The notes under the pieces are model-generated. The model ran no database searches and was not told where the DNA came from. It saw only the letters and a list, made by a program, of their open reading frames with translations. Made by a program: the position numbers and the translations under genes. Shown here in pieces: positions 14,197 through 34,704 of a stretch of 64,000 bases of DNA; position 1 is the stretch's first letter; each line of letters begins with the position of its first letter. This DNA comes from Bacteroidota bacterium (GTDB taxonomy: Bacteria; Bacteroidota; Ignavibacteria; Kryptoniales; JAKASW01): contig JAMCQL010000034.1 in NCBI GenBank assembly GCA_023381615.1, forward strand, positions 1-64,000, read 5' to 3'.

Positions 14197-14419
14197 CAAG
14201 TTTACCCATTTAGACTCTGAACGAGAGAATCTTGTAGAAATCAACATCGGATCTAAGTCACGTTGAGAGATGAGTCTACTAAGATTACCACGAATCAACC
14301 TCCCCTTAGTCCCCTCCTTGACAAGGAGGGGATATAGTCTACGACCCTACGAGCCGTAGACTCGTAGAGGGGTGGTGAGGGCAAAATTCTTAAACCTTTT
14401 CGCGTTTTGGGTAAACTCG
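14197..14419. repeat. MITE-like repeat, copy 2
   Basis: 14199-14421 identical to 3-225; TIR 14197-14208 (one mismatch) and 14408-14419; GCAACCTTGGCAAG present on both sides (14187-14200 and 14424-14437). Confidence 0.8.
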
Positions 14420-14457
14420 TGCAGCAACCTTGGCAAGGCTGCCGCATTAGATGGAAG

Positions 14458-29612: not shown

Positions 29613-29759
29613 TGCGGGTAATGATAAGCCTTACCAAGGAGAGCCTGCCCCGACCTATCGGGGGGACAAAGCCGACGGCTCGGCTCGTCGAGGGGAGGTC
29701 AGTTCTATTCATTGAATGCCCTTACCTCAAAACACAGCCTTTTAGTTGGTGACATGCGT

Positions 29760-32364: not shown

Positions 32365-34704
32365 ATGAAAAAGCTCTTTCTGGCCCTCGCGCTCGGCATT
32401 TCACTGTTCTCTTGGAGCTGCACTCCATCGGTTTACTTTGTGAAACCCTCCGATTGGGATACGGCGGTAAAACAAGATTCCACTATCAATTATTATTCAC
32501 AATATCTGAAAGACTGGAAGATTTTTGTGGATCCAGGACACGGCGGCGAAGACAGAAGAAGCCACGGCCCTACCGGTGAAACTGAAGCCGACATAAATCT
32601 GAGAGTTGGACTTTCGCTTCGAGATTATCTGACGCGCGCCGGCGCAACGGTATTTATCTCGCGCACGAAAGACACGACCGTCAGCCTTCTCGATAGGCCG
32701 AAGCTTGCCGCAGAAAGCGGCGCGGATATTTTCATTTCGATCCACCACAACGCAACAGGGAGCAGCTATAAATATCCGCCGTTGAATTTCACTTCAACCT
32801 GGTACCACGCGTTTAGAGGCGACAGCGCTTACAGCCCGACCAATCACGACCTTGCAAAATATGTCGAACGCGATCTTGCTTACGCGATGGGAAATCCGGA
32901 ACCAAACTTCTTCTCATTTGACGGCACGCTCTCAGATTACCTCATCTATCCATTCAGCGGCTTCGCTGTCTTGAGATACTCGAAGATACCGGCAATTCTC
33001 ACCGAATGCTCGTTCTTTACAAGTCCTTACGAAGAGCGGCGGCTCAAACTCGACACATTCAACGAGATCGAAGCATGGGGAATTTTCAAAGGCTTGGGGA
33101 AATATTTCCAAGCAGGCATACCTGAGCTTTCTTATGCTGGCGATACTTTGTTCAGTCAGCTGCCAATCACATTTGAAGTCAGTTACTCGCAAGGAAAACT
33201 TGCCGGCGGGAAATATGCCATCGACAAGAATTATCTGGATGTAAGTCTCGACGGGAAGCCTGTCGCCGCTGAATTTAAAAATGAATCTAATCCGAAGGTC
33301 GATGATTCCCGACGGGTTGGCCTACGGCCTCGTAGAGGGTCAACGACTCCCTACGGGATTGTAGATCGACTCGTAGAGTCATCGACGACTCGTCGAGATC
33401 CCAACCTTCGTCGGGACAAGATCGCTTTTACTCTCAACAGCTTATTGCCGGGACGCCATTATTTCAGCGTGATCATAAAGAACGAAAACGGCAATCATTC
33501 ATTTCCCTTCTTAAGATATTTCGACTATGTGCCCCCTGCCGCAGAGATCACCGCTTCCGTTTTTCCGGACACACTCTCAGCCAAGTCTTCCGAGTTTTTT
33601 ACGCGAACCGAGGTGAGTTCAGTAGGTGGTTATAACATCTCAGATTTTGTGAACCTATCAATTGTACCCACAAATGCCGTCGCGGAAACCACCTTCCACA
33701 GTAACGAAGCGATTTACACAATTTTCAGAAAGAATAGTTCAGAAAAAGTTGTAATTAAGTATCTTATCGACACGCTTGAAACAGTCCTCACTCCTTCAAT
33801 CTCCGATAGCGTCTCGACGGCATCAATATCGGTCGCTTCACACAAAAGAATTCCGCTCGAAGGTGCAGCCATTTGTTCAGATGGAAAAACGATCGCATCT
33901 ACTCTTTCAAATGGATTTGCGGCATTCAAATACGACGGAGAGCCGCTGCAAATATCCCGACAAGGATATTACATTAAAAAACTTGAGACACTTCCGAAAG
34001 ACACGGTTCGATTGACGCCAATTGCCGATGGCGCCTTGATCGGAAAGACATTTTTGATTGATCCGGCATTTGGCGGAAATGAAAACGGACCCACATCCGG
34101 TTCTTTGCGCGCGGCGGATATCGATCTCGCCACTGCAAAAAAGCTAAATGATCTGCTTCAGGCTTTCGGTGCAAATTCGCAGCTCGTTAGGAGCGCCGAC
34201 ACAACGTTGACTGTGGAACGACGAGCGACTTTCTCAAAAAGGTTTTCACGCGGATTCTATCTCGTGATCTCCGCATCCAACGAGGATGCAAAATTTTCTT
34301 CAACAGTTTATCCAAGTATAGAAAATCACAAATTGGCAGAAGACCTGCTCCGAGCGTTTAGCGTGGAATTTGACACGTCCGGAGTAACGGGATCGGACGA
34401 CGGCATCTTCAAACTTGCGGCGCTTGGAACGGCAGCAATTGAAATTCCATCTCCAAAGACCGATTTCTACTCCGATAAAGATCTAGAACAACAATCGAAC
34501 GAAGTGGCGTGGAGGATTTTGGACGGCATCCTCAGTTATTTTGGCTACATCAAGGCAATCAACAAAACAGATTATGTTAAACTCGACAACGTCATTAAAT
34601 TACCACTTGATGAATGCTCCGCTTTATCCATCGATCCGTCACGGCTGAATATGATAAATAAAATCTTTCTCAACGATTACAGAGAAGCTTGCGAGGAGAA
34701 ATAA
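32365..34704 (+). CDS. N-acetylmuramoyl-L-alanine amidase (Amidase_3) with a second, apparently degenerate amidase domain
   Basis: 'DWKIFVDPGHGGEDRRSHGPTGETEADINLRV...ISIHHNATGS...AILTECSF'; second domain 'KTFLIDPAFGGNENGPTSGSLRAADIDLATAKKL'. Confidence 0.88.
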   Translation: MKKLFLALALGISLFSWSCTPSVYFVKPSDWDTAVKQDSTINYYSQYLKDWKIFVDPGHGGEDRRSHGPTGETEADINLRVGLSLRDYLTRAGATVFISRTKDTTVSLLDRPKLAAESGADIFISIHHNATGSSYKYPPLNFTSTWYHAFRGDSAYSPTNHDLAKYVERDLAYAMGNPEPNFFSFDGTLSDYLIYPFSGFAVLRYSKIPAILTECSFFTSPYEERRLKLDTFNEIEAWGIFKGLGKYFQAGIPELSYAGDTLFSQLPITFEVSYSQGKLAGGKYAIDKNYLDVSLDGKPVAAEFKNESNPKVDDSRRVGLRPRRGSTTPYGIVDRLVESSTTRRDPNLRRDKIAFTLNSLLPGRHYFSVIIKNENGNHSFPFLRYFDYVPPAAEITASVFPDTLSAKSSEFFTRTEVSSVGGYNISDFVNLSIVPTNAVAETTFHSNEAIYTIFRKNSSEKVVIKYLIDTLETVLTPSISDSVSTASISVASHKRIPLEGAAICSDGKTIASTLSNGFAAFKYDGEPLQISRQGYYIKKLETLPKDTVRLTPIADGALIGKTFLIDPAFGGNENGPTSGSLRAADIDLATAKKLNDLLQAFGANSQLVRSADTTLTVERRATFSKRFSRGFYLVISASNEDAKFSSTVYPSIENHKLAEDLLRAFSVEFDTSGVTGSDDGIFKLAALGTAAIEIPSPKTDFYSDKDLEQQSNEVAWRILDGILSYFGYIKAINKTDYVKLDNVIKLPLDECSALSIDPSRLNMINKIFLNDYREACEEK
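33307..33416. repeat. Palindromic insert within the amidase coding sequence
   Basis: Outer arms TCCCGACGGGTTGG / CCAACCTTCGTCGGGA; internal GACTCGTAGAGTC, CCTCGTAGAGG; encodes SRRVGLRPRRGSTTPYGIVDRLVESSTTRRDPNLRR in frame. Confidence 0.75.

Follow-up and report, generated by a model that had tools for sequence, protein, structure and literature searches.

A non-autonomous palindromic mobile element has very probably (probability about 0.85) inserted recently and precisely into the amidase gene of a Bacteroidota genome; the element belongs to a dispersed family. The gene lies in a contig stretch of 64,000 nucleotides that was analysed as a whole (the window). It encodes an N-acetylmuramoyl-L-alanine amidase of 779 codons including the insert, and its product matches the Pfam domain PF01520 (Amidase_3) at residues 53–244 (E = 8.4e-44). 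The edges of the insert have been fixed from the empty site in two congeners, G006 and G002. The insert is 126 bp or 42 codons long, contains no stop codon and is located outside the Amidase_3 domain. The orthologues from both congeners match residues 6–309 and 351–779 with contiguous subject positions, and no remnant of the segment is present at their junction, at either the protein or the DNA level. A near-identical 126-bp segment is found over its full length in a DUF1015-family gene of the same genome (Table 1). An earlier note, based on the letters of the window, had proposed an in-frame palindromic insertion in the amidase gene and had called for a comparison of orthologues and a genome search for further copies; both orthologues lack the segment, the search found many copies, and the proposal is borne out. 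The segment does contain the arms, both CTCGTAGAG cores and the arginine-rich peptide that it described. Its 3′ edge at 33416 was placed correctly, whereas the true start, 33291, is 16 bases upstream of the proposed 33307. The minimal units of 27 and 39 bp, their nesting, the range of housekeeping genes that host copies and the preference for certain adjacent bases had escaped the note.

Table 1 Coordinates of the amidase insert, its parts and related features in the window
Feature	Position	Strand	Basis
Composite palindromic element	33291..33416	+	Orthologues without the element; copy in L002 (the DUF1015-family gene) with 95% identity
Left end TCCGAAGG, common to all type A and type B elements	33291..33298	+	Alignment of copies
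Nested 18-bp module CCTACGGCCTCGTAGAGG	33321..33338	+	Present or absent: 60-bp copy L084 versus 78-bp copies L083 and L085
First CTCGTAGAG, within CCTACGGCCTCGTAGAGG	33329..33337		
Nested 39-bp module ACGACTCCCTACGGGATTGTAGATCGACTCGTAGAGTCA (edges ambiguous by a few bases)	33343..33381	+	Present or absent: 96-bp copy L110 versus 135-bp copy L092
Second CTCGTAGAG, within ACGACTCCCTACGGGATTGTAGATCGACTCGTAGAGTCA	33370..33378		
Conserved type A 3′ core GACTCGTCGAGATCC	33387..33401	+	40 genome copies, 0 in reversed control
Type B right half GATCCCAACCTTCGTCGGGA, in place of the usual type A end	33397..33416	+	Genome matches
Host gene, amidase	32365..34704	+	Open reading frame; PF01520
Separate 32-bp palindromic insertion inside the MITE (edges approximate)	14333..14364 (second copy about 137–168)	+	Absent from three other MITE copies

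The RNA of the amidase insert has a predicted folding energy of −58.3 kcal/mol (z = −4.1 relative to dinucleotide shuffles). The word CTCGTAGAG occurs four times in the window, where 0.23 occurrences are expected and none of 100 shuffles reaches four. In the whole genome it occurs 92 times, compared to 37 for the reversed control, and it is not enriched in the congeners.

The dispersed elements are of two types. The minimal unit of type A, TCCGAAGGTCAACGACTTGACTCGTCGAGATCCTTCGGA, is 39 bp or 13 codons long and is present in 11 nearly unchanged copies; longer nested forms reach 255 bp, and the genome contains about 40 type A copies in total. Type B, TCCRAAGGATCCCGACCTTCGTCGGGA, is 27 bp or nine codons long and has 40 copies with three or fewer mismatches. 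With the window element as the query, 53 matches were found in the genome. The 3′ end of type A, GACTCGTCGAGATCCT, occurs 40 times with at most one mismatch, and the right half of type B 47 times with at most two, both with no occurrence in the reversed control. The ends of type A, TCCGAAGG...CCTTCGGA, are inverted with the consensus TCCRNAGG/CCTNYGGA; the two usually differ at two inner positions, with one end being TCCGAAGG (Fisher p = 0.0025). The ends of type B are unequal.

The family is narrowly distributed. Across the class (61 genomes), DNA resembling the window copy is limited to the same genus, and the congeners contain few or no copies of the family. The other 19 genomes of the order contain a single exact copy of type B, in frame in a helicase-like gene of G006, and one degenerate match each in G003 and G010. 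The element pattern is absent from the viral_contigs and plasmids collections, and the window has no match in Rfam. A scan of genome_contigs returned four scattered exact matches in unrelated organisms, a number close to the chance estimate of about two, given 19 specified bases and 264 Gb; records of this genome and of its near relatives may be absent from that collection. Four congeners (G004, G005, G007, and G011) have nested palindromes of their own with similar words (CTCCCTACGGGATCGTAGATCGACTCGTCGAG), mostly outside long open reading frames (L061–L072).

About half of the type A copies lie within open reading frames, and the inserts in genes are 9–45 codons long. The host genes of in-frame type A copies include those for an ABC exporter, NiFe hydrogenase, IleRS (named by sequence from its class I synthetase domains and DUF5915), AccA, an M1-peptidase-like protein, FtsK, 6-phosphogluconate dehydrogenase, an enoyl-ACP-reductase-like SDR, RNase R, an AddB-like nuclease, a trypsin/PDZ protease, SdhA, and a GltD-like oxidoreductase; the list is not exhaustive. 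Type B is in frame in the genes for MetRS and prolyl oligopeptidase and, as judged from the look of the sequences, in those for an RND transporter, a solute-binding protein, FtsY, LarB, and a putative multihaem cytochrome. The domains ACCA, RNB, NiFeSe_Hases, FAD_binding_2, FtsK_SpoIIIE, and Peptidase_S9_N span inserts. The suggestion that one palindrome family occupies both coding and intergenic DNA while keeping the frame thus holds, with copies of both kinds found. In the GltD-like gene (L117), a 39-bp type A insert is accompanied by a 27-bp type B insert encoding SEGSRPLSG. A 75-bp type A copy on contig C39 (L097:1447–1521) starts a few bases past the apparent 3′ end of a tRNA gene.

The joined flanks of 19 further sites were compared to nine congeners, and 17 of them were resolved. 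Together with the amidase, 18 sites, including those in the genes for IleRS, MetRS, AccA, FtsK, RNase R, and SdhA, lack the insert in the relatives compared. The site L083 has no match among the matches listed, and the DegP-like L113 is not among the resolved sites. The alignment at the site is somewhat shifted in L109 and L135. Gaps near the junctions never exceed one codon, and those of one codon result from rounding at sites where the insert starts inside a codon. No target duplication is present at any of the DNA junctions compared to the exact base; the junctions GTGATG|AAGGA and AACTCA|TCGGAG, for example, are identical in this genome and in the related ones. The twelve residues around the junctions have 65% identity to the relatives, compared to 81% elsewhere, as expected if the inserts persist in tolerant places.

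The lengths of the elements are biased towards multiples of three. This is the case for 35 of the 41 type A copies and for 12 of the 18 distinct lengths of non-coding ones (p = 0.004), where p values for lengths are only indicative because the copies descend from one another. Four of the six frames are open in the 39-mer and all six in the 27-mer, and element forms with a stop in phase 0 occur in other phases. Copies in intact genes have a length divisible by three and no stop in the host frame. The sense orientation predominates in open reading frames of at least 200 residues, where 15 of 20 copies of type A and 9 of 12 of type B have it. Selection may be the cause of this three-base, multi-frame-open design; however, the intergenic copies are also mostly multiples of three, which selection acting in genes does not directly explain. 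A 62-bp copy on contig C49 (L100:1460–1521), which has a stop and a length not divisible by three, splits an open reading frame of about 225 codons in an apparent disruptive insertion. Therefore, insertion is not aimed at reading frames, but few of the surviving copies are disruptive. The open frame and the length are consistent with the presence of the insert in the mature protein, and SEGQRLDSSRSFG-type inserts are probably translated in vivo.

Pairs of copies differ by single inner palindromic insertions of 12, 18, 21, 33, 36, 39, or 54 bp. Examples are the steps between 39 and 72 bp at CTTG|AC, between 60 and 78, between 78 and 96, and between 96 and 135 bp. Where a step is not divisible by three, one of the few copies with a length not divisible by three is mostly involved. 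The window copy has both the 18-bp and the 39-bp module, and its terminal part is the right half of type B. The module changes may have been gains rather than losses.

The exact empty sites fix not only the ends of the elements and the absence of duplication but also a preference for neighbouring bases. Type B has CA directly at its right edge in 18 of 23 distinct sites (p = 6e-18), whereas TG is directly at its left edge in only two. On the opposite strand, YTG is followed at once by the hairpin TCCCGAC-GAAG-GTCGGGA with a 7-bp stem. Type A, the ends of which are alike, has a neighbour preference on either side, with G at −1 in 27 of 41 copies and A at +2 in 31 of 41. No clear relation was found between the GA-bearing end and the TG-bearing flank. 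The empty site in the prolyl oligopeptidase gene reads CAAG in both relatives, and that in the RND gene reads CAG; the relatives lack a CAR-type neighbour in the gene for the solute-binding protein. The flush YTG/CAR neighbour belongs to the host site and not to the element.

In the favoured and very probable reading, copies of the non-autonomous palindromic element enter genes and intergenic DNA precisely, with neither duplication nor loss of the target site, and preferentially adjoining YTG/CAR. What separates the longer forms from the minimal ones, of 27 and 39 bp, is the presence of additional small palindromic modules, mostly in three-base steps. Copies staying in genes, free of stops in the host frame, would be read as short loops rich in Ser, Gly, Arg, and Asp in tolerant parts of proteins. 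An HUH (Y1/RAYT-like) transposase acting in trans might recognize the short tag followed by the hairpin. Single-strand HUH (Y1) transposases, such as those of IS200/IS605 and REP/RAYT, leave insertions that are free of duplication, with a hairpin at the end and fixed, short neighbouring bases at one edge. Because the present elements combine the same absence of duplication, one-sided fixed neighbour, and terminal hairpin, mobilization in trans by such an enzyme is, by analogy, at best an even bet. The absence of a significant strand bias relative to GC skew in the non-coding copies counts against it, since the lagging-strand mechanism of HUH enzymes might give one. The genome contains 11 divergent Y1_Tnp matches, several with palindromes nearby, and the 10 loci examined hold no type A or type B element, only isolated 5′-end matches with one mismatch. 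Most type A 5′ ends pair with a nearby 3′ end, and among the unpaired ones, read in part, no autonomous parent with type A ends enclosing a transposase was found. It is somewhat less likely than not that the 27-bp and 39-bp units are selfish elements adapted to genes, able to enter housekeeping genes owing to three-base lengths, the absence of stops from most frames, and mild peptides, with frame-preserving changes of their modules, and moved at YTG/CAR by a single-strand transposase in trans. As a separate observation, several of the Y1 loci (L122–L131) have palindromes of their own nearby, for example, AACCTTGCGAAGGTT around L128 and CCTCTACGAGG around L124, the latter with the same core as CTCGTAGAG.

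It is unlikely that a conventional DDE transposase moves the elements as MITEs, with TCCGAAGG/CCTTCGGA as their terminal inverted repeats. Type A has such inverted ends, short non-autonomous elements moved in trans are typical of MITEs, and a true MITE is present in the same genome; however, target-site duplication is absent at every junction compared, the ends of type B are unequal and its site preference is one-sided, and the minimal sizes of 27–39 bp include one, 27 bp, below that of usual MITEs. Spread by recombination, gene conversion, or hairpin template switching in the absence of a transposase has an equally low probability: a specific cutting activity is needed for dozens of copies to share their precise ends and a fixed neighbour across unrelated sites, even if the nested modules, mosaics, and variable inner parts resemble hairpin-driven rearrangement, which may well explain the inner module changes. 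Removal of the inserts by the time translation is complete, in the manner of mobile elements that are bypassed or spliced out and so are missing from the protein, could account for strong hairpins within essential genes; it is very improbable because a skipped element needs neither a three-base length nor a stop-free host frame in intact genes, and because bypassing would require the codon before the insert to match the final codon within it, which it does not. Finally, an ancestral conserved part of the amidase, outside the catalytic domain and lost in relatives, is refuted by the exact empty sites in both close orthologues and by the nearly identical 126 bp in an unrelated gene.

The closest known systems to these precisely inserted elements are the Rickettsia palindromic elements (RPEs) and intragenic REPs, which are alike in their behaviour in genes and differ in minimal size, modular change, supply of empty sites, and apparently sequence. 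RPEs are described as palindromic repeats of about 150 bp that are in frame in unrelated protein genes, as well as in intergenic DNA, and occupy tolerant positions (Ogata et al. 2000, 2002, as cited in PMC10969869; PMC3767692). The present palindromic repeats are likewise in frame in several unrelated genes, with 18 such sites; the likeness is one of behaviour. The lineage is different and so, apparently, is the sequence, the smallest units measure 27 and 39 bp instead of about 150 bp, and nested three-base modules are a feature of the present elements. Furthermore, congeners retain exact empty sites, whereas Rickettsia orthologues bear RPE inserts at the same locus (PMC3767692). REPs tagged with GTAG/CGTC are hairpins of 20–40 bp at the tetranucleotide, present in many copies; most are intergenic, some lie inside open reading frames, including those of tRNA synthetase and repair genes, and HUH (RAYT) mobilization has been proposed for the GTAG types (Di Nocera et al. 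2013, PMC3733652). Type B, with 27 bp and about 40 copies, resembles such hairpins. By contrast, the present elements lack the GTAG/CGTC tag at their ends and have the host-owned neighbour CAR/YTG instead, their type A copies are intragenic in about half of cases, and none flanks a Y1_Tnp gene at the examined loci. The small dispersed repeats of cyanobacteria are also very short and form mosaics. To our knowledge, they have not been described as in-frame inserts across many conserved genes with three-base modularity.

Since 2000, palindromes that code for protein have been described mainly in Rickettsia, where the scarcity of empty sites has been one obstacle to learning how they enter genes. 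In the present case, a single bacterium contains dozens of recent copies, many of them in housekeeping genes, and its congeners retain the exact empty sites. The elements offer testable substrates of 27–39 bp and a clean system for studying their entry into genes. They also represent a route by which proteins could repeatedly gain short loops, 9–45 residues in length.

Two nearly identical MITE copies with the ends GAGTTTACCC...GGGTAAACTC are located at positions 1–228 and 14198–14421 of the window. The earlier note had linked the amidase insert to the interior of this MITE. The shared CTCGTAGAG word is indeed there; however, the interior holds a different palindromic insertion, which is 32 bp long, not a multiple of three, and lacks the TCC...GGA ends. 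Alignment shows that MITE copies on contigs C16, C83, and C40 do not have it. Since both window copies carry the 32-bp insertion, either the MITE already contained it when it was copied or conversion took place. The intergenic region 29640–29700 contains a composite palindrome, GCCGACGGCTCGGCTCGTCGAGG, resembling the inner modules of the long type A copies L091 and L107. Another repeat, present about a dozen times (...GGCATCCACAAA / CAGATTCCCGCT...), has a type B element at an identical internal position in every copy (L132, L134, L137, L141–L143, L145, L146, L148–L150, and L152).
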